From contig NZ_FXUY01000001.1 in NCBI RefSeq assembly GCF_900182985.1, forward strand, positions 186,001-250,000: a stretch of 64,000 nucleotides of DNA, read 5' to 3'. Source of the stretch: Pseudomonas helmanticensis. GTDB lineage: Bacteria; Pseudomonadota; Gammaproteobacteria; Pseudomonadales; Pseudomonadaceae. Position 1 is the first letter of the stretch; each line of letters begins with the position of its first letter. Below the pieces are notes generated by a model, which saw nothing but the letters and a program-made list of their open reading frames with translations, was not told the DNA's origin and did no database searches. Below are positions 3,062 through 64,000 of the stretch, piece after piece. The position numbers and the translations under genes are program-made.

Positions 3062-4174
3062 ATGAAACGTGTAGGTCTGATCGGTTGGCGCGGGATGGTC
3101 GGTTCCGTGCTCATGCAGCGGATGCTGGAAGAGCAGGATTTCGATCTAATCGAGCCGGTGTTTTTCACCACTTCCAATGTCGGTGGCCAAGGCCCGTCCG
3201 TGGGCAAGGACATTGCTCCGCTCAAGGATGCTTACAGCATTGACGAGCTGAAGACCCTCGACGTGATTCTGACCTGCCAGGGTGGCGACTACACCAGCGA
3301 AGTGTTCCCGAAGCTGCGCGAAGCCGGCTGGCAGGGTTACTGGATCGACGCGGCCTCCAGCCTGCGCATGAACGATGACGCAGTGATCATTCTCGATCCG
3401 GTCAACCGCAAGGTTATCGACCAGCAGCTCGACGCGGGCACCAAGAACTACATCGGCGGCAACTGCACCGTCAGCCTGATGCTGATGGGCCTGGGCGGTC
3501 TGTTCGAAGCGGGTCTGGTCGAATGGATGAGCGCCATGACCTATCAGGCGGCCTCCGGTGCCGGCGCGCAGAACATGCGTGAGCTGATCAAGCAAATGGG
3601 CGCGACCCACGCTGCTGTCGCCGATCAACTGGCCGATCCGGCCAGCGCGATCCTCGACATCGACCGTCGCGTGGCCGACGCCATGCGCAGCGACGCGTAC
3701 CCGACCGAAAACTTCGGCGTACCGTTGGCTGGCAGCCTGATCCCGTGGATCGACAAGGAACTGCCGAACGGCCAAAGCCGCGAAGAGTGGAAGGCCCAGG
3801 CCGAGACCAACAAGATTCTCGGTCGCTTCAAGAGCCCGATCCCGGTCGACGGCATCTGCGTGCGCATCGGTGCCATGCGTTGCCACAGCCAGGCGCTGAC
3901 CATCAAGTTGAACAAAGACGTGCCGATCGCCGACATCGAAGGGCTGATCAGCCAGCACAACCCTTGGGTCAAACTGGTGCCGAACCAGCGCGATATCAGC
4001 ATGCAGGAGCTGAGCCCGACCAAGGTCACCGGCACCCTGAATGTTCCGGTCGGTCGTCTGCGCAAACTGAACATGGGCTCGCAGTTCCTCGGCGCGTTCA
4101 CTGTTGGCGACCAGCTACTGTGGGGCGCGGCCGAGCCGCTGCGTCGCATGCTGCGGATTTTGCTTGAGCGTTGA
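3062..4174 (+). CDS. asd: Aspartate-semialdehyde dehydrogenase
   Basis: The 370-residue enzyme reduces aspartyl phosphate to aspartate semialdehyde with NADPH, feeding lysine/diaminopimelate, threonine and methionine. The nucleotide-binding start [17 protein letters not shown] is intact, and the catalytic cysteine lies in [11 protein letters not shown] at residue 135. [15 protein letters not shown] and the C-terminal [10 protein letters not shown] also fit the gram-negative Asd branch. A hairpin terminator follows at 4196. Compare the related gene at 4426, which lacks the cysteine. Confidence 0.97.
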
Positions 4175-4195
4175 TCGTTTGATGCAATGAAAGAG

Positions 4196-4226
4196 CCCGC
4201 GCCTTGAAAGAGGTGCGGGTTTTTTT
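4196..4226 (+). terminator. Rho-independent terminator after asd
   Basis: An imperfect hairpin (CCCGC ... GCGGG with extra pairs inside) is followed by seven T residues, 22 bp after the asd stop codon. Confidence 0.85.
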
Positions 4227-4260
4227 ATGCCTTGGATTTCTCGGTTGCCTAGTCTGGCCT

Positions 4261-4328
4261 CTTCGCGAGCAGGCTCGCTCCCACAGGGGTTATGCATTTT
4301 AAATGTGGGAGCGAGCCTGCTCGCGAAG
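4261..4328. repeat. REP-type inverted repeat (GTGGGAGCGAGCCTGCTCGCGAA family)
   Basis: A perfect 25-bp inverted repeat with arms at 4261-4285 and 4304-4328 between asd and the Usg-type gene. It belongs to the same broad family as 979-1045, with the CTTCGCGAGCAGGCTCGC variant. Confidence 0.9.
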
Positions 4329-4425
4329 GGGCCGGTGCAAGCACCGCAAATCCCCGGCAGAAATTGCCTGTGCGGCGGTCACCCGGTAAAGTGCCGCTCC
4401 CCCCGTTTCGCCAGAGGCTCGCACC

Positions 4426-5436
4426 ATGACCCAGACCCTAGATATTGCCGTAATCGGCGCCACCGGTACTGTCGGCGAAACCCTCGTACAGATTCTCGAA
4501 GAGCGCGACTTCCCGGTCGGTAATCTGCACCTGCTGGCGAGCAGCGAATCCGCCGGCAGTTCGCTGCTGTTCCGCAACAAGAACGTGCGCGTTCGCGAAG
4601 TCGACGAGTTCGATTTCAGCAAGGTCAAACTGGTGTTTTTCGCCGCCGGCCCGGCGATCACTCTGAGCTATGCCGCCCGCGTGCAGGCTGCCGGTTGCTC
4701 GCTGATCGACCTGTCTGGCGCGCTGCCGGCCGATCAGGCGCCACAAATCGTTCCGGAGGCCAATGCCGCCCGGCTCGCCGGTTTGAAGGCGCCGTTCCAG
4801 GTCAGCAGCCCAAGCCCGTCGGCCACTTCGCTGGCTGTGGTGCTGGCGCCGCTGCTCGATCTGCTCGACCTGCAATCGGTGCATGTCACCGCCAATCTGG
4901 CCGTTTCCGCCCAAGGCCGCGAAGCCGTTACCGAACTCGCGCGGCAAACCGCCGAGTTGCTGAACATGCGTCCGCTGGAGCCAACCTTCTTCGATCGGCA
5001 GATGGCTTTCAACGTGCTGGCACAGGTCGGTACGCCTGACGCGCAGGGCCACACGCTGCTGGAAAAACGTCTGGTGCGCGAGTTGCGCCAGGTGCTGGCG
5101 CTGCCTTCATTAAAGATTTCCGCAACTTGCGTTCAAGCCCCGGTGTTTTTTGGCGATAGCTTTAGCGTGACCTTGCAGTCAACGCAGGCTGTCGACCTGG
5201 TAAAGGTCAACGCCGCTCTCGAAGATGCGCCGGGTATCGAGCTGGTCGAGGCCGGTGATTATCCGACAGCGGTCGGTGACGCAGTGGGTCAGGATGTTGT
5301 CTACGTCGGGCGCGTGCGCAGTGGCGTCGACGACCCGGCGGAACTTAATCTGTGGCTGACGTCAGATAACGTACGCAAAGGTGCAGCCCTTAACGCTGTG
5401 CAGGTGGCTGAATTGTTGATAAAAGACCTGCTGTAA
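4426..5436 (+). CDS. usg: Asd-like protein of the Usg type, catalytic cysteine absent
   Basis: A 336-residue protein of the aspartate-semialdehyde dehydrogenase fold. The N-terminal nucleotide-binding motif VIGATGTVGETLVQIL is intact. Where true Asd enzymes have the catalytic cysteine (as in NCS or NCT), this protein reads SSPSPSATSLAV near residues 127-138, with no cysteine there. That is the pattern of the Usg proteins found next to truA in proteobacteria, so it is probably not an active Asd. The window already has an intact asd at 3062. It sits between asd and fimV, as in other pseudomonads. The function of Usg is not settled. Confidence 0.85.
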   Translation: MTQTLDIAVIGATGTVGETLVQILEERDFPVGNLHLLASSESAGSSLLFRNKNVRVREVDEFDFSKVKLVFFAAGPAITLSYAARVQAAGCSLIDLSGALPADQAPQIVPEANAARLAGLKAPFQVSSPSPSATSLAVVLAPLLDLLDLQSVHVTANLAVSAQGREAVTELARQTAELLNMRPLEPTFFDRQMAFNVLAQVGTPDAQGHTLLEKRLVRELRQVLALPSLKISATCVQAPVFFGDSFSVTLQSTQAVDLVKVNAALEDAPGIELVEAGDYPTAVGDAVGQDVVYVGRVRSGVDDPAELNLWLTSDNVRKGAALNAVQVAELLIKDLL

Positions 5437-5644
5437 AAGATACTTGGCAACAATTTGTCGACTGATTCTAGGTGAGCGCTATGCTTGCCCGGAGCGCTTG
5501 ATAACGTGTCACCCTCCGGGACTTTCCGGGGCATCAAAGAAATGATCGCGCGCGACATCTGTCGTCGTCGCGCGCAATGCCTTACGGCAGCGACAATCAA
5601 TATCTTCTCGCTGGCCGAGGAACGTTCAAACAAAGGATGAGGCT

Positions 5645-8299
5645 ATGGTTCAAGTTCGCAAACTGGTGTTAGCAATAGCGGCCGCCTCGGCGCTGTCCTC
5701 CGGTATGGCGCATGCCCTCGGGCTCGGGGAGCTGACCCTGAAGTCGACCCTGAACCAGCCGCTGGTGGCTGAAATCGAGCTGCTCGACGTCAAGGATCTC
5801 ACCGCTGCCGAAGTGGTACCGAGCCTGGCTTCAGCCGAAGATTTTGCCAAGGCCGGCGTTGATCGCCAGGCCTTCCTCAACGATCTGACCTTCACCCCGG
5901 TGCTCAACGCCAGCGGCAAAAGCGTGCTGCGCGTGACGTCGAGCAAGCCGCTGTCGGAACCGATGGTGAAATTCCTCGTCCAGGTGATGTGGCCGAACGG
6001 CCGTCTGCTGCGCGACTACAGCGTGCTGCTCGATCCGTCGAAGTTCTCGCCGCAGACCGCTGATGCCGCCGCGCAACCGGCACCATCGCAGACCATCGCT
6101 GCGCCGACCACTGGCGCCACGCACCCGACGCAATACACCACCACGCCGCGCGATACCCTCTGGGAAATCGCCGCGAAGGCGCGCACCGGTGGTTCGGTGC
6201 AGCAGACCATGCTGGCGATTCAGGCGCTGAACCCGGACGCGTTCATCGGCGGCAACATCAACCGTCTGAAAACCGGTCAGGTTTTGCGACTGCCGGACGC
6301 GGTGCAAAGTACCGCGTTGCCGCAGAACAAAGCGATCGCCGAAGTGGCGGCGCAGAACGAAGCCTGGCGTCAGGGCCGTCGTTATGTGGCCAAGCCGGGC
6401 AGCGGCCAGCAGCAGCTCGATGCGACCAATCGCGGCCGGGCGAACACTGGTGCTGCATCAAACGCTCAGGACAACCTCAGCCTGGTCTCTGCCGAAAGCG
6501 CTAAAGGTCGCGGTAAAGGCCCGGCGGGCGACGCCAAGGCGTTGAGCAACAAACTGGCGGTCACCCAGGAAAGCCTCGACACGACCCGTCGTGACAACGA
6601 GGAACTGAAAAGCCGCATGACCGATCTGCAGAGTCAGTTGGACAAACTGCAAAAGCTGATCGAGCTGAAAAACAATCAACTGGCGAAGTTGCAGGCCGAA
6701 GGTTCGGGCGCAGCGCCAGCGGCGAATGGTGCGGCAGCAGCGGTTCCGGCGATCACCGCCGAATTGGCTGCCACGCCACCTGCGACGCCGACAGACGCTG
6801 CGGCGGCATCGCCGACGCCTGAATCGGCGATCGCACCACCGGTCGAGACACCGGCCGAACCGGTGGTCGCGCCGACACCTGCGGTCGATGACGAGAAGAC
6901 GTTCAACGAACTGCTGACCAATCCGATCCTGCTGGGGCTGATCGGTGGCGGTGCGGTGGTCCTGCTGCTCCTGCTGTTGTTGCTGGCACGTCGCCGCAAA
7001 GCTCAGCAGGAAGCCGAGAAGCACGTGCGCATGGCGCGTGCGCTGGCCGAAGAGCAAGAGTTCTCCGCCGAACAGGATCTGCCGGAAAGCAGCTTCGAAG
7101 GTCTGGAAACACCTGCCGCCAGCGTCAAGCTGAATACTCCGGCGCCAACCCCGGCTCCGGCTCCTGCACCAGTCGTGGCGCCCGTGGTAATGGCCGAACC
7201 GATTGCTGCGCCGCTGGTGGCACCGGCCGCCGAGCGTTCCGATGACGTGCTCGACAAGGCGCAGTCGCACATCAATGCCGGTCGCCTGAATCAGGCTGCG
7301 GCGTTGCTGGAGGAGGGCGTCAGCCTAGAGCCACAACGTAGTGACCTGCGCCTGAAACTGATGGAAGTCTATGGTCAGCAGGGCGATCGCGATGCGTTCG
7401 TCGGCCAGGAGCGTCAGTTGGTGGCCAACGGCGACAACTTTGCCAAGGTCGAAGAACTGAAAAGCCGCTTCCCGGCCATGGCCGTCGTCGCTGCTGCCGG
7501 TCTGGCGGCTGCCGCCGTCGCTGCCGAGCTGGACGCGCAATACGTCAAGGACTTGCTGCTGGATGAGCCTGAAGCACCGGCGCCGGCGCCAGTGGAAGAC
7601 GATCTCGACAGCGCGTTTGACCTGAGCCTGGACGATCTCGACAACATCACGCCGGTAGAACCCGCGCCGGTTGTTGAGCCTGAGGCGCCGGTCGAGCTGG
7701 ACGAATTTCCGTCGGACGACGACCTGAGCTTCGAGTCGGTGCTGCAACAGCAGACCGAGATCAAAGAGAACCTCGACGATTTGTCGGACTTCGACCTCGA
7801 TCTGGACCTCGGTGCTGATCCGGCTCCAGCTCCAGCGGTTGACCTGGCGGACGACGATTTCCTCTTGGATCTGGACGAGGGCGTGAAAGACCTGTCGCCG
7901 GTAGAACCACCGGTCGTGGCCGACTTGCCGCAGGATGATCTGGAATTGCCGGCTGATTTCGACCTGTCGCTGGCAGACGAAATGGACAGTAACCCGGCGG
8001 CTGAGCCTGATGCCTTCTCAGCGGAGCTGGATGACGTCAATGCTGAGCTCGATCGCCTGTCGCAATCGGTTGCCGAGCCGACCTTCACCGAAGCCGATGC
8101 AGCGATGGGTGGCGATCTGGGCGAAGACGATTTCGACTTCCTTGCCGGCACCGATGAAGCCGCGACCAAGCTCGATCTGGCTCAGGCCTACATCGACATG
8201 GGCGACAGCGACGGTGCGCGTGACATCCTCAACGAAGTGTTGACCGAGGGTGACGAGAAGCAGCGTGGCGAGGCCAAGGAAATGCTCTCGAGCTTGTAA
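5645..8299 (+). CDS. fimV: FimV-family pilus and polarity hub protein with LysM domain
   Basis: An 884-residue inner-membrane protein. It has a signal peptide (cleavage near MAHA-LGLGEL), a periplasmic N-terminal FimV domain, a LysM peptidoglycan-binding domain at about residues 164-215, a coiled coil at about 302-351, one membrane span at about 426-448 followed by ARRRK, and a long acidic cytoplasmic tail ending in the FimV C-terminal motif (TKLDLAQAYIDMGD to the end). In P. aeruginosa FimV organises type IV pilus assembly and cAMP signalling at the pole. Alanine/proline-rich linkers vary between strains. A strong hairpin terminator follows. Confidence 0.95.
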   Translation: MVQVRKLVLAIAAASALSSGMAHALGLGELTLKSTLNQPLVAEIELLDVKDLTAAEVVPSLASAEDFAKAGVDRQAFLNDLTFTPVLNASGKSVLRVTSSKPLSEPMVKFLVQVMWPNGRLLRDYSVLLDPSKFSPQTADAAAQPAPSQTIAAPTTGATHPTQYTTTPRDTLWEIAAKARTGGSVQQTMLAIQALNPDAFIGGNINRLKTGQVLRLPDAVQSTALPQNKAIAEVAAQNEAWRQGRRYVAKPGSGQQQLDATNRGRANTGAASNAQDNLSLVSAESAKGRGKGPAGDAKALSNKLAVTQESLDTTRRDNEELKSRMTDLQSQLDKLQKLIELKNNQLAKLQAEGSGAAPAANGAAAAVPAITAELAATPPATPTDAAAASPTPESAIAPPVETPAEPVVAPTPAVDDEKTFNELLTNPILLGLIGGGAVVLLLLLLLLARRRKAQQEAEKHVRMARALAEEQEFSAEQDLPESSFEGLETPAASVKLNTPAPTPAPAPAPVVAPVVMAEPIAAPLVAPAAERSDDVLDKAQSHINAGRLNQAAALLEEGVSLEPQRSDLRLKLMEVYGQQGDRDAFVGQERQLVANGDNFAKVEELKSRFPAMAVVAAAGLAAAAVAAELDAQYVKDLLLDEPEAPAPAPVEDDLDSAFDLSLDDLDNITPVEPAPVVEPEAPVELDEFPSDDDLSFESVLQQQTEIKENLDDLSDFDLDLDLGADPAPAPAVDLADDDFLLDLDEGVKDLSPVEPPVVADLPQDDLELPADFDLSLADEMDSNPAAEPDAFSAELDDVNAELDRLSQSVAEPTFTEADAAMGGDLGEDDFDFLAGTDEAATKLDLAQAYIDMGDSDGARDILNEVLTEGDEKQRGEAKEMLSSL

Positions 8300-8350: not shown

Positions 8351-8361
8351 GGTTTTCAAGG

Positions 8362-8443
8362 TCAAAAGATCGCAGCCTTCGGCAGCTCCTACAGGGGAAT
8401 GCGGATTTCTGTGTAGGAGCTGCCGAAGGCTGCGATCTTTTGA
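8362..8443. repeat. Inverted repeat of the AGGAGCTGCCGAAGGCTGCGATC family
   Basis: A perfect 32-bp inverted repeat (8362-8393 and 8412-8443) between fimV and truA. Near-identical copies occur at 61601-61685 and 63277-63354, and a diverged one at 18073-18178. It forms a second extragenic palindrome family, distinct in core sequence from the CGCGAGCAGGCTC family. Confidence 0.92.
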
Positions 8444-8454
8444 TCCTGAGGCCT

Positions 8455-54457: not shown

Positions 54458-54639
54458 AGCCCTTGTCCGTGACGGAATGTTTAAAACTTGTTTCAAATTT
54501 GTCGAACCTTCCCACAATGTTTTCAGGTTGTCCGTCGGACGTGCGGCCTCTAGCCTGTGTTCGTCGCTGCCAAATCAGCGATCGGGCATGGAAACCCGAG
54601 TAACTACAGAGCGCACAAGCGCCACTCATAACGTATCCT

Positions 54640-54802
54640 TGCGCACCCTACGGTATGCACTTTGTTATGGCGGCTGTGCGTGGGAGACCTCGTGTCTGCC
54701 GGGTTGCCTCTGTCCCGGGTTTCCAGCCTGCGTACAGCTGCCACCTATTCGCTTGGAAACCGAATGGGGGCCAGCTATAACCGTCATACAGGGTAAATAA
54801 TT
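54640..54802 (+). other. Leader region with small frame before the DUF6124-type gene
   Basis: The stretch has an open frame of 41 codons from ATG 54655 to TAA 54780 (starting MHFVMAAVRGRPRVCRVASV), ending 22 bp before the next gene's GTG. I recall closely similar leaders before DUF6124/DUF3077-type genes in many Pseudomonas genomes, including the GGCGGCTGTGCGTGGGAGAC core, but cannot verify that here. It could be a leader peptide or a structured RNA leader. Confidence 0.4.
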
Positions 54803-55174
54803 GTGAAAAAACCAACACCCAACCCCCCAGAATCAGACGCCGACTCCACATCCCCCTACGCCTCAGTCGACAGCAAAAAACTCCACGAAGCCGCCGACCG
54901 CGCCCTCGATTTCTACCTCAATCCCGCCGCCCGCATCATGTCCAGCCGCAACGAGCCGGAGCCCATGTACCTCGCCAATCCCAGGTACAACACCGAATCC
55001 CTGCTCGCCAACGCCAGCGAAACCCTCGGCTCGGCCAGCGAAATGCTGATCAACTTCGCTGCCTCGCTGGAAACCTCACAGCGCAAAACTGCACTGGGCA
55101 TCGCACAAGTCGTCATGTTGGGCGAACTGGCGGTGAATCAAGCGCTGGATCACGTCGAGTTGAAGGATGGCTGA
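54803..55174 (+). CDS. DUF6124-type protein
   Basis: A 123-residue soluble protein starting with GTG. KKPTPNPPESD and SKKLHEAADRALDFYLNP at the N terminus, then ESLLANASETLGSASEML and the C-terminal GELAVNQALDHVE, match a Pseudomonas-specific family (DUF6124, related to DUF3077) of unknown function that occurs in many copies per genome. No ribosome site of normal strength precedes the GTG. Confidence 0.75.
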   Translation: MKKPTPNPPESDADSTSPYASVDSKKLHEAADRALDFYLNPAARIMSSRNEPEPMYLANPRYNTESLLANASETLGSASEMLINFAASLETSQRKTALGIAQVVMLGELAVNQALDHVELKDG

Positions 55175-55291
55175 TTGATCGTTCCCACGCGCAGCAAAGG
55201 AATGCAGCCCTTGAAGCTCTGCGACAAATTCGCGAGCTGGAACGCGGAGCGTCCCGAGAGGCATTCCCACGCAGAGCGTGGGAACGATCAA
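55175..55291. repeat. Extragenic inverted repeat (TTGATCGTTCCCACGC)
   Basis: Exact 16-bp arms at 55175-55190 and 55276-55291, about 85 bp apart, with imperfect pairing inside (GCAGAGC, GGAATGC/GCATTCC). It starts one base after the DUF6124-type stop and is a fourth palindrome type in the window. Confidence 0.8.
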
Positions 55292-55296
55292 GATAC

Positions 55297-55333
55297 AAAA
55301 AAACCGTACCTCCACCGGAAGCACGGTTTCTTG
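55297..55333 (+). terminator. Possible terminator after the DUF6124-type gene
   Basis: AAACCGT / ACGGTTT stem with a 15-nt loop, then TTCTTGTG; A run on the left side. It may also serve the minus strand. Confidence 0.6.
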
Positions 55334-55354
55334 TGTTGAGACGAGGAAGAGTTC

Positions 55355-55467
55355 TTAACCGGGGTCGCGTCGAGGGTACTCCTGACGCGCATGCAAGATG
55401 CTCACAATCTCAATGTGGTCCGCCACTTGATAAACGACGAGATAGTTCGGGCGGGCACAGTGGGTCG
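55355..55467 (-). pseudogene. ParE/RelE-type toxin gene, C-terminal remnant
   Basis: On the minus strand the frame reads CARPNYLVVYQVADHIEIV, SILHARQEYPRRDPG then stop at 55355. This is the usual C terminus of ParE-type toxins (NYLVVYQV and ILHARQ). In this frame a stop occurs a few codons upstream, near 55475, and no N-terminal part or start codon is present, so the toxin gene is truncated. A 10-bp direct repeat GGGTCGATCA lies at its broken edge (about 55462 and 55477). The rest of the 590-bp gap up to 55763 has a 60-codon frame at 55516-55698 (minus) that I cannot assign. Confidence 0.6.
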
Positions 55468-55707
55468 ATCAAGGACGGGTCGATCATAGAACCTCCGGGT
55501 TTGGTGCCTCGAAGTCTATTCGTTAACGGTATCGCTGTCGTCGCTGTCTGGATGAATTGCATGTAGGCCAAGCTCCATGAAGATCAAGTTGTCCCGGTAA
55601 ATCCTAGAGCCTGCACTTCCGACGGCCAACCGCCAGAACTTGTCAGAAAACTCCCCGAATTTCTGAAAATGTTCCGTTTTCCGTAGGACGCAACTCAAGC
55701 GTCAGCG

Positions 55708-55745
55708 CAAAAAAAACCGCGATCCCCTTCACCAGAGAATCGCGG
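55708..55745 (-). terminator. Terminator of the curlin operon
   Basis: On the minus strand CCGCGAT ... ATCGCGG forms a stem with a 15-nt loop, followed by eight T residues. It lies 19 bp after the csgA-type stop, so the operon ends here with no further csg gene. Confidence 0.88.
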
Positions 55746-55763
55746 CCCATCAACACCCAACCC

Positions 55764-57215
55764 CTACTGCTGCAAAACCGTCGCCTGGTTAGCCGAGCCA
55801 AATTGCTGAATATTCGCCGTTTGCGTCATCCCGCTCTGATCGACATTGGCAATGTTCCCCGTCCCGCCTTGGGTCACGTACGCCACGTTCATCGTATCCG
55901 CCTGTTTCACCGTGATCATGTTGTCGCTGCCATACAACTGCGCGGTGTACGCCTGGTTGCCGGATCCCGACTGATCAAACTCGGCGCTGTTGCCCGTGCC
56001 GTTCGATGAACCCTGCACCAGGTTGCCGGTGCCGCGCTGATCGGAGATCAAGAGGTTGTCGCTACCGTTCTGATCAAAATACAGCTCGTTATACGACTCA
56101 GCCTGACTCACGGTGGTTTTGTTGCCCGTGCCGGTCTGATGCGTGGTCATCACGTGCCCGACGCCATCCTGAGTGAAGCTGGCAACGTTGCCATTCCCCG
56201 CCTGAGTCACCGTCGCACGCTGGTTGCTGCCGAACTGGCCGCCCGATTGCGGGCCTTTCCAGTTGCTCGCGTAGACCTTGTTGTCGTTGCCCACGGAGGT
56301 GGCGCTGAGCACGTGGCCGTCGCCACTTTGATAGGTGTAGTGCACGTTGCCGTTGCCCACCTGGTATAGCGCCAGCGTCGAGTTGACCGATTCGAACTGG
56401 TCGGCGTAGATCGCGTTAGTGTTGCCGACCTGGGTGACGGCGGCGTTATTGTTTTCGCCGAAGCTTTGGTCGACCACGGTTTCGTTGCTGTCGCCGTATT
56501 GGTTGACGGTGGCCTGGCTGGCGAGTTGGCTGTCTTGCCAGATTTCACTGCCGTTGAGGTTGCCGAACTGGTTGATGGTGATGTTGCCGCCGGTGCCGTT
56601 GCGCTGGTCGCCGTAGGCGTAGTTGTTTTCGCCGGCCTGGTTGATGCCGATCTGCCCGCCGTTATGAGTGACCTGTTCGGCGGTGCCGTAGTTGGCGGTG
56701 CCGTATTGGGTGATCACCGAGCTGTTGCCGCTGCCTTCATAGAGTTGTTCGATGTTGGCTTCGTTGCTGTCGCCGAACTGGAAGGTTTTGCCTTCGCTGC
56801 CGTTCTGCGAGTCCTGATAGATGAACGAGAAGTTGCCGCTGCCTTGCTGCTGTTGCAGCGCACTGTTTGGTGCGCCGAAACCCAGCGACTGGCTGGCGTG
56901 GGCGGTGTTGAAGGCGCCGACCTGTTGCTGGGTGATGGTGGCGTTGTCTTCGTAAAGCTGTTCGGCGTAACCGGCGTTGTAGTCGCCGACCGCGTCCTGG
57001 GTGATCACGCTGCTGGCGTGGTCTTGCACGGCGGCGGCGTCGTTGCCCTGGCCCAGTTGGGTCTGGGTGGCGGTGCTGAACGGCGCTTGGGTCTGCTTCA
57101 CGTCCGCGATGTTGGCGGTACCGGCCTGACTCTGGTTGGACAGGCTGTCGTCGGCCATGGCCTGGGCACTGATCATGACCAGGAGGGCGGCGGTGAGGGG
57201 CGTCAGTTTGAACAT
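55764..57215 (-). CDS. Major curlin subunit-like protein (CsgA type), unusually long
   Basis: A 483-residue exported protein with signal peptide (ALLVMISAQAMA then DDSLSNQ). Almost the whole mature chain is made of about twenty curlin-type repeats of the form Q-x-G-x-x-N-x(5)-Q (for example INQAGENNYAYGDQ, VNQYGDSNETVVDQ, VTQAGNGNVASFTQ). E. coli CsgA has five repeats in 151 residues, so this protein is about three times as long. It should form surface amyloid fibres after outer-membrane export. It is last in a four-gene minus-strand operon, 27 bp after the csgB-type gene. Confidence 0.88.
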   Translation of the reverse strand: MFKLTPLTAALLVMISAQAMADDSLSNQSQAGTANIADVKQTQAPFSTATQTQLGQGNDAAAVQDHASSVITQDAVGDYNAGYAEQLYEDNATITQQQVGAFNTAHASQSLGFGAPNSALQQQQGSGNFSFIYQDSQNGSEGKTFQFGDSNEANIEQLYEGSGNSSVITQYGTANYGTAEQVTHNGGQIGINQAGENNYAYGDQRNGTGGNITINQFGNLNGSEIWQDSQLASQATVNQYGDSNETVVDQSFGENNNAAVTQVGNTNAIYADQFESVNSTLALYQVGNGNVHYTYQSGDGHVLSATSVGNDNKVYASNWKGPQSGGQFGSNQRATVTQAGNGNVASFTQDGVGHVMTTHQTGTGNKTTVSQAESYNELYFDQNGSDNLLISDQRGTGNLVQGSSNGTGNSAEFDQSGSGNQAYTAQLYGSDNMITVKQADTMNVAYVTQGGTGNIANVDQSGMTQTANIQQFGSANQATVLQQ

Positions 57216-57242
57216 GATGATCTCTCCGATGATTTTCAGTGT

Positions 57243-57707
57243 TTAGCGATATTGCTTGACCGAAACGCTCATGCCGTTGCCCGACTGGGTCACGGCGCTT
57301 TGCAGCCCCGTACCGGCCTGCTCGATGCTGGCGTCGTTGTTGTTGCCGTTTTGCGAAATCTGCGCGCGGTTGTGGCTGCCGTTCTGGATGATCGAGGCGG
57401 CGTTGCCGGAACCGTTCTGGTTGATCAGCGCCATCAGGTCGCTGCCCTGTTGCAGGATGTACGCCTCCTGATTGCTGCCCGACTGCACGATCTGCCCGAG
57501 CAGCGACTGACCGTTCTGTTGCAGCAGGGCGACGTTGGCCTGGCCGAGCTGATCGATCAGGGCTTGCTGACCCACGGGTGGGGGCAGTTCGCCGAGGTCG
57601 CTGCTGGTCGGGGCCAGGTCGTCGTTGTCCATCAGGTCGTCGGCGCGCACGCCCGCGCTGCTGCACAGCAGAAGCAGGCAAAGCAGGGCGGCGGTCGGCG
57701 TGTTCAT
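57243..57707 (-). CDS. Minor curlin subunit-like protein (CsgB type)
   Basis: A 154-residue exported protein with signal peptide (LLCLLLLCSSAGVRA then DDLMDND), a short proline-containing linker (ELPPPVGQQ) and about five curlin repeats (ALIDQLGQANVALLQ, GQIVQSGSNQEAYILQ, ALINQNGSGNAASIIQ, AQISQNGNNNDASIEQ, SAVTQSGNGMSVSVKQ). Size and repeat number fit CsgB, the nucleator that anchors and seeds CsgA fibres. Its place just before the CsgA-type gene matches the csgBA order of E. coli. Confidence 0.88.
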   Translation of the reverse strand: MNTPTAALLCLLLLCSSAGVRADDLMDNDDLAPTSSDLGELPPPVGQQALIDQLGQANVALLQQNGQSLLGQIVQSGSNQEAYILQQGSDLMALINQNGSGNAASIIQNGSHNRAQISQNGNNNDASIEQAGTGLQSAVTQSGNGMSVSVKQYR

Positions 57708-57779
57708 GGCTCAAATCCTGTCAGGCGTTAACCGGTTCGAAGTCGGTTCCGGCCACCCGAAAGTGGCCGGGGATCAGGC

Positions 57780-60014
57780 TTACAGCGTGGTCACCGAGAC
57801 CGTGCGCACGGTGCCCTGGGAGGAGCGGATCGTCGCGGTCGGGTTGGCCGATGGCACTACCGTCGTGTTGTTCAGCGTCAGCCGCCAGCGACCGGTCACC
57901 GGTACGGTGGTGGTGCCGAGGGTGACCAGCCCGGTCGGGGTGGTGACCTGCACAGTGATAGTGTTGCCGGTGGTCACTGACGAGGTGCCAGTGAAGTCCC
58001 AGTTGAAGCGCCCGCCGGAGCGTGCTTGCACCGTCGACGCGGTGACGGCGAAGGTTTCCGCCGCTGGCCGTGGCGACACTTGCACCGTGACCGTGGCCGG
58101 CGTCGACAGGGCGCCGAAGCTGTCCCGGGCGATGTAGGTGAAGGTCGTGGTGAACGCCGTGGTCACGGTGGCCGGTGGGGTGTAGGTGATCACCGTGCCG
58201 TCAGTGCTGACCGTGCCGCGGCCGGCGGCCGGTTGGGTCAGACTGGCGACGCCGAGCGGCACGTTGCCTTCCGGATCGGTGTCGTTGGCCAGGACGTTGA
58301 TCGGAATCGCCACACCCAACGTGGCGACGCTGTCGGCGACGGCGGTCGGTGACCGGTTTGGCGCGACGCTGATCGTCACGGTGGCCGGCGTGGTCGAGGC
58401 CAGGCCTTTGGCGTCCTGCGCTTTGTAGGTGAAAGTGGTGGTCAGTGGCGCGTTGACCACCGCTGGCGGCGTGTAGACCACGGCGGCGGTGCCGCTGAGG
58501 GCGACCGTGCCTTGGCCGGCAGCCGGTTGGGTCAACGCGGTGATGCTCAGCGGCGTGTTGCCGTCGGGATCGCTGTCGTTGGTCAGCAGGCTGAGGGTAA
58601 TCGGCACGCCAAAGCTGGTGCTGCCGGTGTCGGCATTGCTGATCGGTGCCTGGTTTTCCCCGGTGTCGGGCGCGGTGCCGAGCACGACGACGGCCTCGGT
58701 GTCACTGCCGCCGGCGGCGGATTTCACCGTCACCGTGGCCGGTGGTTGGGTCAGGTCGGCAACGGTGATGCGTTGCAACGTGCCGGTTTTCGACAGGCGT
58801 CCGTAACCCTGGGCAACCATGTCCGGGATCGCCACTTCATCGGTCGATGTCGCTTCGATCAACAGGCTGTGATTGGCCCAGCTGTAGCGTGCGGTCTGGA
58901 TTTTCACCACATCGGTGAGCTTGGCCGAAACGGCGGTCGGCCGCGTGGTGCCGGCCGGATTGGTCGCGGTCACGACGACGACCGAAGGCAGCGTACCGTT
59001 GCCCAGGCGCTGACCGAAAAACAGACCAGTATTGTCACCCGTCAGGCTGGTCTGGCACGGCGTTGGTGGCGGGCCGGGCAGCAGCGCGACGGTTTCGCGA
59101 AAGCACAGCGTCGAACTGGTGTCAGCCTTGGCGAACACTTCGGCACGCACACCGGCCGAGGTCCGGCGATAGGTGGCGCGGTCGATGTCGACATGGGTTT
59201 GCTGACGGCTGTCGAGCACCTTGCCGGCGACCGTGAACAGGGTGGTCTGAATGGTCCCGGCGCCGGACGGCCCGACGATGCGCACGAAGTTAGTGTTGAA
59301 CGGGCTGCCGGTCACCGCTTCGGTGAGGTTCGGGTCGCCGACGAAAGTTTCGACCCCGCCGGTGTCCGGGTTCACTTCGGTGTAGGGGCCGTTGAGGCTG
59401 CGCAGGAACGGGCCGATGGCGCCGTTGAGCGTGCCGCTGAAATCGCCCGGCGCACCGATGCCGATGTCCTTGGTGATGTTGATCGCGCGCCGTCCCGGGG
59501 TGGTGACATTGACGGTTTCGACGCCATACGGGTGGGTGATGACGTAGGTGCCAGCCACGGGAACGTTCACCCGAATGCGGATCCGCGCGAAGCTTTGCTG
59601 ATCGCCATCCACCGGGTTTTCCGAGGCAAACGCCGCTTCGATCCCGGCAACATAAGCGTCCATGCCATAACCGGCGCCGTTGTTGGGGATATTGGTTTCG
59701 GCGAGGAACCAGAAGGCTTCCGGCGGCCAGTTGTCGGGGAACACCATCGGCAGGCTGTCGTCGTAGATGCCCGGTTCTGCCAGCAGGGTGCACATGTAGG
59801 CGGGTGGCGTGGTGACGCCGACGCGCGAACTGGCGGCGCGCGACTGGCACAGCTCCATCGACAGGTTATTGCTGTCCTGGTACCACATCGGGAATTTCCC
59901 GGTGGCAAAGGTGTAGGGGCCGGGGTCGACGGCGGCGAGTTGCGCATAGGCACTGCCGGTCAGCGAGAGAGCGAGCCCGAGCGCGTTGAGCGCAAAGCGT
60001 GGCCACTTGTTCAT
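57780..60014 (-). CDS. Large secreted protein: novel N-terminal domain plus two cadherin/Ig-like repeats
   Basis: A 744-residue exported protein. The signal peptide is ALGLALSLTGSAYA then QLAAVDPGPYT. Residues about 25-445 form a domain shared with the neighbour at 60050 (AVDPGPYT, WYQDSNN, PEAFWFLAETN, GTYVITHPYGVE, PGRRAINITKDIGIG, GDPNLTEAVTGSPFNTNFVRI). Then come two ~95-residue cadherin-like repeats (NDSDPDGNTPL and NDTDPEGNVPL, typical calcium-binding or VCBS/Tandem-95 patterns) and a C-terminal beta domain. The start 60014 has a perfect AGGAGG; an ATG at 60053 overlapping the previous stop is less likely. Probably a surface or matrix protein; function unknown. Confidence 0.8.
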   Translation of the reverse strand: MNKWPRFALNALGLALSLTGSAYAQLAAVDPGPYTFATGKFPMWYQDSNNLSMELCQSRAASSRVGVTTPPAYMCTLLAEPGIYDDSLPMVFPDNWPPEAFWFLAETNIPNNGAGYGMDAYVAGIEAAFASENPVDGDQQSFARIRIRVNVPVAGTYVITHPYGVETVNVTTPGRRAINITKDIGIGAPGDFSGTLNGAIGPFLRSLNGPYTEVNPDTGGVETFVGDPNLTEAVTGSPFNTNFVRIVGPSGAGTIQTTLFTVAGKVLDSRQQTHVDIDRATYRRTSAGVRAEVFAKADTSSTLCFRETVALLPGPPPTPCQTSLTGDNTGLFFGQRLGNGTLPSVVVVTATNPAGTTRPTAVSAKLTDVVKIQTARYSWANHSLLIEATSTDEVAIPDMVAQGYGRLSKTGTLQRITVADLTQPPATVTVKSAAGGSDTEAVVVLGTAPDTGENQAPISNADTGSTSFGVPITLSLLTNDSDPDGNTPLSITALTQPAAGQGTVALSGTAAVVYTPPAVVNAPLTTTFTYKAQDAKGLASTTPATVTISVAPNRSPTAVADSVATLGVAIPINVLANDTDPEGNVPLGVASLTQPAAGRGTVSTDGTVITYTPPATVTTAFTTTFTYIARDSFGALSTPATVTVQVSPRPAAETFAVTASTVQARSGGRFNWDFTGTSSVTTGNTITVQVTTPTGLVTLGTTTVPVTGRWRLTLNNTTVVPSANPTATIRSSQGTVRTVSVTTL

Positions 60015-60049
60015 GATGCCTCCTGATGCGGATCTGGGCATGTGAGCGT

Positions 60050-61396
60050 TCATTGCACGATGACCACTTCTTCGGTGTCGCTGCCGCCGTTGGACGACGT
60101 CACGCGCACCTTGGCCGGTGGTATCGGCGAGATCCCGGTGGCGAGGCTTTTCACCGCGCCGTCGCCACTCAGCGCACCAATCGCGGCGCCGCTGATCGAG
60201 GTGGCGGTGAGTACCGGCGGCGAGGTTTCGTCACTGGTCGAAGCCACCAGCGTCAGTTGCCCGGAGCTGAGGCTGTATTCGGCGCGCGAAATCACCACCA
60301 GGTCGGTCAGGGTCATGGGCAGGGTGGTCGGCGTGCTGCTGGCGATGGCCAGGTGGTTGTCGGCGGTCACCTGCAGGACGCTCGGTACGGTCGGGTTGGC
60401 CGACGATTGCGCGTACCAGGCACCGGTGGAGTTGGCTTCGGTCATGTTCAGCACCGGGGTGAAACTGGTCACGGCGACGGTGCCCGGGGCTGGCGGTGCG
60501 AGGACGAACACGTCCTGCTGGGCGACCGGCGCGCTAGTCCCGGCTTTACGCGAGTAGGTGCTGCGCTGGGTGATCATTGGCGTTGGCCGGACCACGGTCG
60601 AGAGCTTGCCGGAGACGGCAAACGCAGTCGTACGCAAGTCAATCCCGCCGGGGCCTTCGATGCGCACGTAGTTGGTGTTGAACGGGCTGCCGGTGACCGC
60701 CTCGCTGAGGTTCGGGTCGCCGACAAATTGTTCGGCGGCACCGGTCACCGGGTTGGTCTCGGTGTAAGGGCCGTTGACGCTGCGCAGGAACGGGCCGATG
60801 TCACCCTTAAGCGCGCCGTCGTAGGTTTTCGGCGTGCCGATGCCAATGTCGCGGGTCATGTTGATCGCGCGGCGGCCGGGGGTGTCGATATTGAACACGT
60901 CGACACCGTACGGGTGGGTGATGACGTAGGTGCCGGCGGTGGGCACGTCGACGCGAATGCGGATACGCGCGAAGCTGACTTGATCGCCTTCGACCGGTTC
61001 TTCGGCGGCGAACGCGGCTTCGACGGCGCTGACATAAGTCAGGTCGATCCCGCGTGCAGCATCGACGAGGGTGGTTTCGCCGGTGAACCAGAACGCTTCA
61101 TCGGGGAAGTTGCTCGGGAAGGCAATCGGCTGGGTGTCGTCGAACACGCCGGGGGTCGGCAGCAGCGAGCACATGTACGAAGGTGCGCCCGGAGCGCTGG
61201 GCACGCGAGAGCTGAGGGCTTTGGACAGGCACAGATCGAGGGTGCGACCGTGGGTGTCCTGATACCAATTGGCGAAACCGCCATTGGCCGGCGTATACGG
61301 ACCTGGATCAACAGCAAACAAAGCGGCCTGGGCAATGCCCTGGGCCAAGGCGCTCACGACCAGGACAGTCGCGGTTTTGGACAGTAAAGGGTGCAT
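60050..61396 (-). CDS. Secreted protein with the same novel N-terminal domain, first gene of the curlin operon
   Basis: A 448-residue exported protein with signal peptide (VLVVSALAQGIAQA then ALFAVDPGPYT). It matches residues 25-455 of the next gene's product along its whole length, ending in NGGSDTEEVVIVQ where the neighbour continues into cadherin-like repeats, so the pair arose by duplication with a C-terminal gain or loss. Conserved cysteines (LDLCLS, YMCSLLP) and the HPYGVD motif are shared. I do not recognise a named family. Its stop is 35 bp before the start of the next gene. Confidence 0.78.
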   Translation of the reverse strand: MHPLLSKTATVLVVSALAQGIAQAALFAVDPGPYTPANGGFANWYQDTHGRTLDLCLSKALSSRVPSAPGAPSYMCSLLPTPGVFDDTQPIAFPSNFPDEAFWFTGETTLVDAARGIDLTYVSAVEAAFAAEEPVEGDQVSFARIRIRVDVPTAGTYVITHPYGVDVFNIDTPGRRAINMTRDIGIGTPKTYDGALKGDIGPFLRSVNGPYTETNPVTGAAEQFVGDPNLSEAVTGSPFNTNYVRIEGPGGIDLRTTAFAVSGKLSTVVRPTPMITQRSTYSRKAGTSAPVAQQDVFVLAPPAPGTVAVTSFTPVLNMTEANSTGAWYAQSSANPTVPSVLQVTADNHLAIASSTPTTLPMTLTDLVVISRAEYSLSSGQLTLVASTSDETSPPVLTATSISGAAIGALSGDGAVKSLATGISPIPPAKVRVTSSNGGSDTEEVVIVQ

Positions 61397-61600
61397 GAGT
61401 TAATCCCTCTATCAAAGTACCTGCCCCTTGGGGATGGGTCAGTTGCAGAGGGCCTGTACACCTTCCATGCCAAGGTGCGGTGAACGGGCGGGAGAGAGCC
61501 GGGATAGAGTGCTTTCGCCGTTGCGAAGTGCTGAGCGCGACAGGCGGGAAAAGGGCGCAATTCCCCAGAATCGGGGACGATGGGGATGAACACAGAACCT

Positions 61601-61685
61601 CTGTAGGAGCTGCCGAAGGCTGCGATCTTTTGATCTTGATTTAAAAACAGGATCAAAAGATCGCAGCCTTCGGCAGCTCCTACAG
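61601..61685. repeat. Inverted repeat of the AGGAGCTGCCGAAGGCTGCGATC family
   Basis: A perfect 35-bp inverted repeat (61601-61635 and 61651-61685) in the 398-bp gap between the divergent curlin operon and the sensor kinase gene. I see no other feature in the gap apart from the palindrome CCCTATAGGG at 61764-61773, 22 bp before the kinase start. Confidence 0.92.
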
Positions 61686-61794
61686 GGATTTGGGGTGGGT
61701 TTGGGATGGGTGCATCGGGTCGATATCCCCGCAACCGGGCAAACACCCAACCGTGGGCTATAACCCTATAGGGACGTATCGGGAAGTCGCCGCC

Positions 61795-63243
61795 ATGAAC
61801 ATACAGTCGAAATCGCTTGCGCTCGAGGAGGGCAATCTACGGTTGAGCTCGCGCAAGCAATCGTTCAATCTGCTGCGCTGGTTTTCGCTGATCAGCATGG
61901 CGGTGATCGGCACGGTGGCGGTGGCGCTCGGGGCGGTGTCGACACGATTCGTGATCGAGGAAAGCGTGCAGCGCGATGCCTTGCTCACGGCGCAGTTCAT
62001 TCAGGCCATCGCTTCCGCCGAAGTGCGCCATGTGTCCATTCCCAACATCCGCACGATGGGCGAACTGCTCGATCCACGTCAGGACAAGGATTTTCCCGAT
62101 GTCGATCCGCAGGCCCGGGCGGGCGCGAGGGGTGAATTTCTCGACCACATCGAACACCTGCCGGACGTGATCCTCGCCAATATTTATGCCCCCGACCGCC
62201 AAGTGGTCTGGTCGACCAACCCGGTTCTGATCGGTACCAGCATTCATGCCGACGAAGACCTCGATCGCGCCTTCAACGAAAAAATCCCGGTGTCGGCCAG
62301 CTACCACGACGTCGACAAGGCGCGTGAAGAACAGAAGTTCATCATCCCGCCGGATTACATTTTCATCGAGAACTACATCCCGCTGTTCGACGCCGACGGC
62401 AAAAACGTCACCGCGATGGTCGAGATCTACAAGGAACCGAAAGACTTGATCGCCCGGATGGAACGCGGGCTGACGCTGATCTGGCTGGCCACCGCGCTCG
62501 GCGGCGGCCTGATTTATCTGGGGCTGTACTGGATCGTCCGGCGCGCGGCGATTCTGCTTGCAGCCCAGCAAAAACAACTGATCGCCAATGAAACCTATGT
62601 TGCGCTGGGCGAGATGTCCTCTGCCGTGGCACACAGCCTGCGCAATCCGCTGGCGACCATTCGCTCCAGCGCCGAGTTGGCACTGGAGTTCGATGCCGGC
62701 CCGGCCGAGAAGAACATCAAAGACATCATCGGTCAGGTTGACCGCATGTCGAAGTGGGTGCGCGAGCTGCTGCAGTCCCTGCGTCCGCTCAACGATGATC
62801 CGGAACCGGTCAACCTCGTCGCGACACTGCACGAAAGTCTTGTCGCCTTCGAACAACAGATCGCCAGGGCCGGGGTGCAAGTGGTGTTCCACCCGCAGCA
62901 CACACCGATGGTGCTCAGTCAGCCGGTGCAACTGACGCAGATCCTCAACAGCCTGCTGGCCAATGCGCTGGAAGCGATGGACAAGGGCGGCACATTGACC
63001 GTCAGCCTTGAGCCAGCGGCTGACGGCGGTGTTTGCGTGGCGCTCAGCGACACCGGCAAAGGCATGAACGAAGAACAGCGGACCATGGCCTTCCGGCCGT
63101 TTTTCACCACCAAGGCCGGCGGACTTGGCGTCGGCCTGGTGCTGGTCAAACGCATCATGGAACGCTTCGGCGGCGGCGTGACGCTCGACAGCCGCGAAGG
63201 CGAGGGCACCACCGTGCGCCTGGCCTTCCAGCTAGTCCCCTGA
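61795..63243 (+). CDS. Membrane sensor histidine kinase
   Basis: A 482-residue kinase with two membrane spans (about residues 27-49 and 226-248) around a 175-residue periplasmic sensor domain. The phospho-acceptor histidine, about residue 280, is in AVAHSLRNPLATIRSSAEL; the ATP-binding domain has the N box NSLLANALEAMD, the G1 box DTGKGMNEEQ and the G2 box GGLGVGLVLVKRI. No response regulator is in view. With the sigma-54 promoter and exported oxidase-like gene downstream it resembles the MnxS-type kinases of manganese-oxidising P. putida, but this is inference. The start MNIQSKSLAL was chosen to avoid running through the upstream repeat region. Confidence 0.9.
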   Translation: MNIQSKSLALEEGNLRLSSRKQSFNLLRWFSLISMAVIGTVAVALGAVSTRFVIEESVQRDALLTAQFIQAIASAEVRHVSIPNIRTMGELLDPRQDKDFPDVDPQARAGARGEFLDHIEHLPDVILANIYAPDRQVVWSTNPVLIGTSIHADEDLDRAFNEKIPVSASYHDVDKAREEQKFIIPPDYIFIENYIPLFDADGKNVTAMVEIYKEPKDLIARMERGLTLIWLATALGGGLIYLGLYWIVRRAAILLAAQQKQLIANETYVALGEMSSAVAHSLRNPLATIRSSAELALEFDAGPAEKNIKDIIGQVDRMSKWVRELLQSLRPLNDDPEPVNLVATLHESLVAFEQQIARAGVQVVFHPQHTPMVLSQPVQLTQILNSLLANALEAMDKGGTLTVSLEPAADGGVCVALSDTGKGMNEEQRTMAFRPFFTTKAGGLGVGLVLVKRIMERFGGGVTLDSREGEGTTVRLAFQLVP

Positions 63244-63276: not shown

Positions 63277-63354
63277 TGTAGGAGCTGCCGAAGGCTGCGA
63301 TCTTTTGATCTTGAAAACAGAATCAAAAGATCGCAGCCTTCGGCAGCTCCTACA
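63277..63354. repeat. Inverted repeat of the AGGAGCTGCCGAAGGCTGCGATC family
   Basis: A perfect 33-bp inverted repeat (63277-63309 and 63322-63354), 33 bp after the kinase stop. Nearly identical to 61601-61685, so the kinase gene is bracketed by two copies. Confidence 0.92.
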
Positions 63355-63477: not shown

Positions 63478-63493
63478 TGGCGCGCTAGTTGCA
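63478..63493 (+). promoter_or_regulatory. Sigma-54 promoter
   Basis: TGGCGC-GCTAG-TTGCA matches the sigma-54 consensus TGGCAC-N5-TTGCA with one change; the GG (-24) and GC (-12) pairs have the required 10-bp spacing. Transcription would start near 63504, 27 bp before the next ATG. Such promoters need an NtrC-type activator. Confidence 0.8.
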
Positions 63494-63530: not shown

Positions 63531-64000
63531 ATGGACAGAACAACGCGTGACCCAAGCAAAACCTTTCTGCTGACGCCCTTGAGCGTGTTTCTGATGTTGA
63601 CCCTCGGCACGATGGCCGGCGTTCGCGCCAGCCCCATCGATGATGAGCGTCAGCCAGAAACCTCCGATCCATCGGCGTACTACGACGAACCGACGGACGA
63701 GGCGACGGCGCTCAACGCTATCCTGACCATGCCCGAGGCCAACGAAGATTCCTTCGATTTGCCCGACGGTGTGAAAGGCTCGCGTGATACCACTCGCGCA
63801 GAAAACATCCTGCCGCCGACCGTGCAGACCAGTTTCAACTACCCCACCAACGGCAAGCCGAGCCCGCTCTATGGCGCACAGCCGTTCACCCAGCAGTTGA
63901 CCCTGTTCGAAGAGTTCGGCCCGGAAAAACTCGACCCGACCACCCCGGCCGCGCCGCTGCCATTCCCGCCGGCAGCGATTGGCCCGGCGCCGGCGCAAGA
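63531..64000 (+). CDS. Exported protein, 5' end only; possible MnxG-type multicopper oxidase
   Basis: The visible 156 codons encode a signal peptide (LLTPLSVFLMLTLGTMAGVRA then SPIDDERQ) and an acidic, proline-rich N-terminal region (AILTMPEANEDSFDLPDG, NILPPTVQTSFNYPTNGKPSP, then PAAPLPFPPAA). No copper-binding motif is inside the window. I suspect the large manganese-oxidising multicopper oxidase found in P. putida and P. fluorescens strains because of this N terminus, the kinase upstream and the sigma-54 promoter, since mnxG expression needs the sigma-54 activator MnxR. The identification is tentative. The gene runs off the window. Confidence 0.4.
   Translation, partial: MDRTTRDPSKTFLLTPLSVFLMLTLGTMAGVRASPIDDERQPETSDPSAYYDEPTDEATALNAILTMPEANEDSFDLPDGVKGSRDTTRAENILPPTVQTSFNYPTNGKPSPLYGAQPFTQQLTLFEEFGPEKLDPTTPAAPLPFPPAAIGPAPAQ

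Follow-up and report, generated by a model that had tools for sequence, protein, structure and literature searches.

The closest described counterparts of the locus reported here are the MnxG/McoA manganese-oxidation system of Pseudomonas putida GB-1, the Gsp-related Xcm pathway of the same strain and the curli of Escherichia coli. The locus lies in a 64-kb stretch of the 6.53 Mb Pseudomonas helmanticensis genome (G000; C1:186001-250000), hereafter the window, where two genes that share a ~430-residue domain, dom1 and dom2, stand in a row with genes for CsgB- and CsgA-type curlins. Passages of PMC11409713 describe the gene order mnxS1 - mcoA - SCO1 - mnxS2 - mnxR for the Mn-oxidising MS-1 and DSV-1 and predict MnxR to be sigma54-dependent, with a Tn5 insertion in rpoN cited as support, and according to a passage of PMC4509608 GB-1 needs the Xcm pathway to secrete its Mn-oxidising factor. 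Clusters of csgAB and csgEFG have been reported in Pseudomonas, with csgD nearby only in P. stutzeri (Dueholm 2012, PMC3521004; PMC3056050). The relevant passages of these two papers do not connect curli with the dom pair, with Gsp or with Mn oxidation, and those of PMC3056050 handle curli and Mn oxidation separately; term searches inside the Mn-oxidation papers PMC11409713, PMC11930936, PMC8218464 and PMC9765421 likewise gave no 'curli'. In the literature searched, no paper joins Pseudomonas curli, mnx and Xcm, a mention in de Vrind 2003 or Geszvain 2010 being possible. Taken singly, Pseudomonas curli, mnx and Xcm have all been described; their joining and the domain family appear to be new.

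We found that the dom1-dom2-csgB-csgA row belongs to a Mn(II)-oxidation cluster, a membership that was missed from the window alone for want of flanking sequence. The dom genes are linked to mnx and curli genes, occur together with them across the genus and have promoter signals in common with the mnxG and Gsp-csgEFG operons. We consider it probable (roughly 60%) that the locus forms the extracellular arm of Mn(II) oxidation in Pseudomonas, with Dom1 and Dom2 as exported partners of MnxG-type oxidases and curli co-recruited under a sigma54 switch.

The row comprises four minus-strand open reading frames (ORFs) in close order. The first, dom1 (60050..61396), encodes 448 residues that consist solely of the domain, and dom2 (57780..60053) encodes 757 residues, in which the domain is followed by two Big_9/Cadherin-type repeats (58077..58655, minus strand, Pfam; the first at Pfam residues 467-561, the limits of the second estimated from sequence) and a short C-terminal segment that recurs in distant homologues. 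The real start of dom2 is probably the ATG at 60014, which is preceded by an AGGAGG site. Judged by eye, the N-termini of both proteins look signal-like, that of Dom1 ending in GIAQA. The csgB-type gene (57243..57707) encodes 154 residues with 3 stretches of curlin repeats and the csgA-type gene (55764..57215) 483 residues with 10 such Pfam stretches (PF07012, E 1.6e-19 and 7.1e-24, respectively), both scoring under the NCBIfam cut-offs for E. coli-type equivalogs; the CsgA precursor has 18 QxGxxN motifs and a net charge of -30. A terminator-like stem-loop of 15 pairs with a T-run (55714..55748, minus strand) lies 3' of csgA, in a region with 4 terminator-like sites against a shuffle mean of 6.5, so without excess. 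With the annotated starts dom1 and dom2 share 4 bp, whereas a dom2 start at 60014 would leave 35 bp between them, and the gaps are 72 bp between dom2 and csgB and 27 bp between csgB and csgA; such short distances fit a single operon. The initial annotation, drawn up from the window alone, had already recognised the four genes, the domain common to the two large proteins, which it took to be exported, the cadherin-like repeats, the two curlins and the terminator, and all of these were recovered here.

The domains of Dom1 and Dom2 are 49% identical over 442 aligned columns. The initial annotation could not name the domain, and with the protein itself as query we obtained no match in Pfam, NCBIfam or PDB sequences. 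Sequence searches of the PDB with the domain returned nothing better than E 0.5, a profile of 55 members gave a best E of 2.1 against the PDB, and the 55 members scanned singly against Pfam reached a best E of 0.034, each family being hit by one member only. The best 120 homologues listed were, where named, Pseudomonas proteins, mostly 'hypothetical'. The family thus appears to be undescribed, having no name in the libraries searched. A single-protein search of 194 order-level genomes (only 4 from the genus) matched the own genome alone. A full-length alignment searched against 398 Pseudomonadota genomes matched 130, which we did not use as a domain count; among the matches listed, all but the own genome aligned to the repeats (model position at least 404).

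The initial annotation had also noted that no csgEFG accompanied the curlins and had named a different curlin export or anchoring route as one possible role of the large proteins, beside fibre partners, adhesins or matrix proteins. Within the 64-kb window CsgG and CsgF indeed gave no match, but genome-wide searches for CsgG and CsgF led to csgE, csgF and csgG, together at C1:377.7-379.4 kb, ~130 kb from the curlin genes of the window (CsgF at C1:378105; CsgG at C1:378653, E 8.8e-80), and Pfam identified the ORFs as CsgE, CsgF and CsgG (PF10627, E 2.3e-35; PF10614, E 6.9e-32; PF03783, E 5.8e-80). Since the standard set is encoded in the same genome, loss or replacement of CsgEFG is ruled out and a separate export route is unsupported. 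A second CsgG-family match at C1:1551212 was rejected as the curli CsgG, being weaker (94.6 bits) and away from the sole genomic CsgF match. That protein (C1:1551 kb; L010, ~4147-5965) stands beside two small lipoprotein-like ORFs, and no curli gene was recognised among the ORFs listed around it.

The csgEFG genes end a same-strand row of mostly overlapping or abutting frames that runs from a response-regulator receiver through GspE, four small ORFs, a secretin and three pseudopilin-type ORFs to csgE, csgF and csgG. Pfam matches in the Gsp block were T2SSE, T2SSF, PilN-type, N_methyl, Secretin and T2SSM_b. Two of the four small ORFs match PilN and T2SSM_b, the labels gspL and gspC going without a Pfam match, and two of the three pseudopilin-type ORFs carry the N-methylation motif. 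This row follows, on the same strand, a six-gene mnxG operon (mnxG, beta-propeller, SCO1, SCO1, periplasmic-binding/cytochrome c, SurA-like), with a T2SSF-type gspF on the opposite strand before mnxG. The propeller is lactonase-type, and the second SCO1 was judged from sequence alone. MnxG (1968 residues) matches the NCBIfam equivalog NF041487 with 3919 bits against a cut-off of 3100. The locus thus resembles the GB-1 MnxG/McoA system in its MnxG equivalog and six-gene operon, whose order matches that given for GB-1 and other Mn oxidisers in passages of PMC11409713 and PMC8218464. It resembles E. coli curli in encoding CsgA and CsgB with repeats together with CsgE, CsgF and CsgG, and differs in that csgEFG end a Gsp operon, CsgA has 483 residues, the promoter signals are sigma54-type, two extra domain proteins are encoded in the subunit operon and mnx genes stand around it. 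As with Xcm, a second Gsp set is tied to Mn oxidation; here it directly follows the mnxG operon and has csgEFG as its last genes. A 2003 title by de Vrind reportedly links a Gsp-related Xcm pathway with secretion of the GB-1 Mn-oxidising factor.

Common promoter signals connect the three operons. Before dom1 we found a sigma54-type -24/-12 element (TGGCATGGAAGGTGTA, 61457..61472, minus strand, 76 nt before the ATG), whose -12 half is degenerate in the window and reads TGGYAYRN4TTGC in most relatives, and the palindrome CCCCAGAATCGGGG (61563..61576), a candidate activator site, perhaps for MnxR. The strict form TGGYAYRN4TTGC was present ~69-100 nt 5' of the dom1 start in 56 of 73 loci (controls: 1/14,600 shuffled and 5/3,850 random segments), and a relaxed -12 half, a pattern that had no control, raised this to 73 of 73. 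The palindrome CCCCN6GGGG occurred ~100 nt further upstream in 64 of the 73 loci, against 108 of 7,300 shuffles. Across the own genome CCCCRN4YGGGG has 14 sites (8 for the reversed-pattern control), four of which stand before dom1, mnxG and Gsp-csgEFG (two sites at the last). A sigma54-type motif lay within 250 bp only at those four, in the correct direction and at 89-131 nt, and within that distance none accompanied the other ten palindromes, which served as control for a motif pattern composed after viewing three sites. The palindrome was first found at dom1, so that its discovery owed nothing to the three sites at mnxG and Gsp; our own arithmetic gives ~0.001 chance palindromes for two 250-bp stretches. 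The dom operon lies 110-122 kb from the mnxG and Gsp-csgEFG operons in this genome.

In 20 further genus genomes, hand-picked for a survey of the mnxG and Gsp promoters, the strict sigma54 motif preceded mnxG in 20/20 and the palindrome in 16/20, and the Gsp operon was preceded by two tandem palindromes in 20/20 and by a relaxed sigma54 motif in 14/20. Random segments gave the palindrome in 82/4000 and palindrome plus motif in 21/4000, from a pool that contained these very loci, so that the background is overstated. A further palindrome, CCCCAATTTTGGGG at C1:277934 (L181), ~30 kb from the dom1 site and without a sigma54 motif, lies outside ORFs of at least 120 residues, near an ORF that we guess from its first residues to be UDP-sugar-dehydrogenase-like.

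We counted how often the genes occur together in 199 genus genomes (E 0.001 for the domain, CsgF and csgB-like, E 1e-50 for MnxG). The domain was present in 61 genomes, MnxG in 59, CsgF in 65 and csgB-like in 68. Domain and MnxG occurred together in 59 genomes, the domain alone in 2, MnxG alone in none and neither in 138 (Fisher p 9e-49); for domain and CsgF the corresponding numbers were 58, 3, 7 and 131 (p 2e-38), both p values being descriptive and overstated, as the genomes are not independent. All seven CsgF-only genomes lacked MnxG as well as the domain, and the dom genes were broken in one of the 61 domain genomes (G241). The dom pair therefore tracks MnxG at least as closely as it tracks curli.

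Gene arrangement was compared by mapping the own genes with tblastn on 15 stretches chosen from 11 relatives, of which 10 carry the domain. A frequent order was the mnxG operon, Gsp-csgEFG, the convergent csgA-csgB-dom2-dom1 and then mnxS1-mcoA-SCO1-mnxS2-mnxR. Six of these 10 carriers had csgEFG 0.3-6 kb from csgA: G212, G228, G346, G217 and G234 had Gsp-csgEFG at this distance from the convergent row, and G241 had csgG-csgF at the same place beside decayed dom genes, dom1, dom2 and csgA matching in pieces with stops or frame changes (L046, 7643-13213). The two blocks were ~220 kb apart in G301. What is one continuous cluster in G212 is divided in the own genome, where the csgG and csgA sides lie apart (C1:~240.4-243 kb versus 377-380 kb; window 54473-55700 and L009 ~7500-7900) and a short many-copy repeat stands near the split point; this is either a true rearrangement or an assembly effect.

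Among 77 Pseudomonadaceae loci both dom genes matched in all and csgB adjoined them in 70, which rules out a chance neighbourhood of dom and curlins; the placement beside curlins proposed in the initial annotation thus extends to relatives. CsgG was found within ~9 kb in 29 of the 54 loci with enough flank. G327 (L041) has lost csgF and csgG and retains only remnants of csgE, csgA and csgB; its Gsp and both dom genes are intact and MnxG is present, which makes it a ready-made natural curli-minus comparison strain. The dom pair of G214 and G353 had no curlins in the stretch. Second-type dom pairs near MnxR/MnxS-like genes and a receiver protein were found in P. taiwanensis (L064), Pseudomonas sp. 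JM0905a (L070) and BN411 (L095), with no curlins at that place; L064 and L095 also have mnxG-gspF, and their mnxG carries the strict sigma54 motif without the palindrome. G213 (L047) and contig C24 of G234 (L045) have a second, divergent curli set with csgA, csgB, csgE, csgF and csgG together, and no dom or mnxG match was found within the 18-19 kb fetched around it.

Outside Pseudomonadaceae, a plasmid search gave three homologues with 29-31% identity covering 89-98% of Dom1, and the genome scan, for which the best 80 of 202 confirmed stretches were used and in which non-Pseudomonas members are under-sampled, added three contexts (L057-L059). A multicopper oxidase was found within ~20 kb of the domain in all six, and a curlin in the neighbourhood of none. 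Three have MnxG-like oxidases together with beta-propeller and SCO1 genes: a Nitrospirae groundwater metagenome-assembled genome has a MnxG-like gene (45% identical), propeller, SCO1 and two dom genes consecutively; Indioceanicola has a MnxG-like gene (40%), propeller, SCO1 and Gsp-like genes, with dom ~17 kb from the oxidase; and Methylobacter luteus has three dom genes, a multicopper oxidase and SCO1, then SCO1, propeller, a multicopper oxidase-like match and two MnxG-like genes (38-39%). The remaining contexts are a Skermanella plasmid (multicopper oxidase, SCO, dom), an Arthrobacter plasmid (dom between two multicopper oxidases) and a 3.9-kb Phycisphaerae contig with two Cu-oxidase ORFs directly 5' of dom. 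NF041487 was the sole family match of the four distant MnxG-like proteins (E 0). As Cu-oxidase_2 matches numbered 1-12 per genome or record, chance adjacency is unlikely in the large genomes and less so in the small plasmids. Further homologues came from Thermodesulfovibrionales, other Nitrospirota, Deltaproteobacteria, Oceanisphaera and P. resinovorans. The methanotroph Methylobacter luteus (L058, L178), which within ~32 kb encodes three Dom proteins alongside two MnxG-like proteins and additional multicopper oxidases, is a candidate Mn oxidiser.

Of 8 genomes and 3 plasmid records searched for curlin repeats (PF07012), 7 genomes and 2 records had none, the search for Skermanella and Arthrobacter covering their plasmid records only. 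None were detected in the Nitrospirae, Methylobacter, Phycisphaerae and Azotobacter genomes, in the Pseudomonas genomes of L070, L102 and L104 or on the Skermanella and Arthrobacter plasmids; the two positives of the 11 were the Indioceanicola plasmid (~700 kb from dom) and P. taiwanensis G761 (another contig). MnxG matched in 4 of the 8 genomes. The curlin-free dom loci near multicopper oxidases rule out a strict curlin partnership. Co-occurrence of domain and curlins, which the initial annotation had proposed to check, holds in Pseudomonas (58 of 61 domain genomes have CsgF); as a general reading, 'curlin partner' covers no more than the Pseudomonas side of the picture, the domain tracking MnxG or other multicopper oxidases where curlin repeats are missing.

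In a tree of 34 domains, Pseudomonas dom1 and dom2 formed one clade with Azotobacter and Oceanisphaera (100/100), the short and long proteins of Nitrospirae and Thermodesulfovibrionales formed a separate clade (100/100), and Methylobacter a and b paired with each other (100/99). Such lineage-wise clades point either to a separate origin of the short/long pair in each lineage or to gene conversion homogenising the paralogues. More tentatively, the domain could be a cross-phylum extracellular partner of MnxG-type oxidases, with a short/long pair in several lineages, Pseudomonas having wired curli and Gsp into the same sigma54 switch so that enzyme, exporter and amyloid scaffold are made together and Mn oxide is laid on a dedicated amyloid matrix, a case of biomineralisation on functional amyloid; we regard this wider version as possible rather than probable.

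If the locus is the extracellular arm of Mn(II) oxidation, sigma54 RNA polymerase and an activator, most probably MnxR, would be the users of the promoter signals, switching on the mnxG, Gsp-csgEFG and dom1-dom2-csgB-csgA operons together through CCCCRN4YGGGG. The Gsp machinery, probably the Xcm pathway, would move MnxG across the outer membrane, and Dom1 and Dom2 may take the same route. CsgEFG would export CsgA and CsgB, curli supplying the matrix, and Dom1 and Dom2, as putative scaffolds in physical contact with MnxG or curli, would keep the oxidase, or Mn oxide as it grows, at the cell surface or within the curli matrix. The curlins would have joined dom1 and dom2 in Pseudomonas. As dom persists without curli and seldom without a multicopper-oxidase cluster, we see it as serving primarily the oxidase and secondarily the fibre. 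If this is right, the cell makes its mineral-forming enzyme along with an outer coat of fibres. The locus bears on the reasons for and the site of Mn oxide formation by Pseudomonas, on how Mn oxidases get and stay outside and on what curli are for in this genus, questions that the promoter signal common to three operons makes jointly testable. The family is also a new marker for MnxG-type clusters, including those of groundwater Nitrospirota, and the curli-linked and curli-free loci are natural controls.

Several observations weigh against a role in Mn(II) oxidation. Two domain carriers (G214 and G353) lack MnxG, G241 has MnxG and csgF/csgG despite its decayed dom genes, and the genus counts come from genomes that are not independent. 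The distant MnxG-like proteins score 1399-1655 bits, under the NF041487 cut-off of 3100, and neither Dom1 nor Dom2 has a motif proving metal or oxidase binding. The kinases and regulator of the flank are candidate MnxS1, MnxS2 and MnxR, and the Gsp cluster is probably Xcm, in both cases by position and domain content. The promoter signals are also uneven: the -12 half is off-consensus in 17 of 73 loci, namely the window and its kin (dom1 86-97% identical); before mnxG the palindrome is missing in 4/20 genomes and the motif follows it at 40-200 nt in only 13/20; at the Gsp operon the sigma54 motif was never strict (0/20) and its relaxed form was absent upstream in 6/20. For mcoA the palindrome occurred in 2 of 35 entries and the sigma54 motif in 12 of 39, the own sequence counted once, and the strict motif was not found before mnxS1, mnxS2 or mnxR.

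Among other explanations, the one that survives best, though we hold it to be unlikely, is that Dom1 and Dom2 serve curli as accessory proteins, whether as adhesins associated with the fibre, as caps or as anchors, and that the Mn genes are mere neighbours or co-regulated. It would account for the operon-like row with csgB-csgA in 70 of 77 Pseudomonadaceae loci and for the cadherin-type repeats of Dom2, a type frequent in adhesins. It does not sit well with the curlin-free genomes and plasmids, with G327, where curli genes were deleted and both dom genes kept, with the seven genus genomes that have CsgF and neither domain nor MnxG, or with the distant homologues that lie near multicopper oxidases. 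Somewhat less likely again is that the two proteins are general extracytoplasmic companions of multicopper oxidases, for instance in delivery or shielding of copper or another metal, without a special role in Mn oxide or matrix. The smaller oxidases of the Skermanella, Arthrobacter and Phycisphaerae contexts are in line with this idea, as are the metal-handling genes nearby (SCO in Skermanella, a cation transporter and a P-type ATPase in Arthrobacter), the sub-cut-off scores of the distant MnxG-like proteins and the domain itself, in which two Cys are invariant or nearly so and acidic and His residues are conserved. On the other side stand the 59 of 61 genus carriers that have MnxG and the three distant contexts where a MnxG-like protein comes with the same propeller and SCO1 companions; the smaller oxidases, moreover, may oxidise Mn as well. 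Shared inheritance of a single Pseudomonas genomic island, in which curli, dom and mnx have no common function, is very improbable: all genus data do come from related genomes, and the blocks are split without visible loss in the own genome and G301, but domain and multicopper oxidase recur in unrelated lineages, and a rare palindrome with a sigma54 motif is common to three operons, of which that of dom lies 110-122 kb from the other two in the own genome, with the signals kept in relatives.

The flank of the row matches this placement in the Mn(II)-oxidation cluster by its gene content. Divergent from dom1, we found a sensor histidine kinase that is MnxS1-like by position (61795..63243, plus strand; the ORF opens at the TTG at 61690, the ATG at 61795 being likelier). 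It is followed by the start of a multicopper oxidase, mcoA-like by position (63531..64000, plus strand), which extends beyond the window end into L012 and is preceded by a sigma54-type element (TGGCGCGCTAGTTGCA, 63478..63493, plus strand) 38 nt before its ATG at 63531. No NCBIfam model matched the mcoA-like protein over its cut-off. Further 3' in L012 are an SCO1-cytochrome c gene, a MnxS2-like kinase with 63% identity to the first kinase, and a MnxR-like response regulator of the sigma54 type; a multicopper oxidase and SCO1 between two kinases, together with a sigma54 regulator, are also what passages of PMC11409713 describe for MS-1 and DSV-1.

Finally, a repeated element, partly an inverted repeat, was found at window positions 61601-61684, 63277-63354 and 8356-8449 and also in L012, L051 and L009. 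We take it to resemble an intergenic element of the repetitive extragenic palindromic (REP) type, and one copy lies between dom1 and mnxS1.

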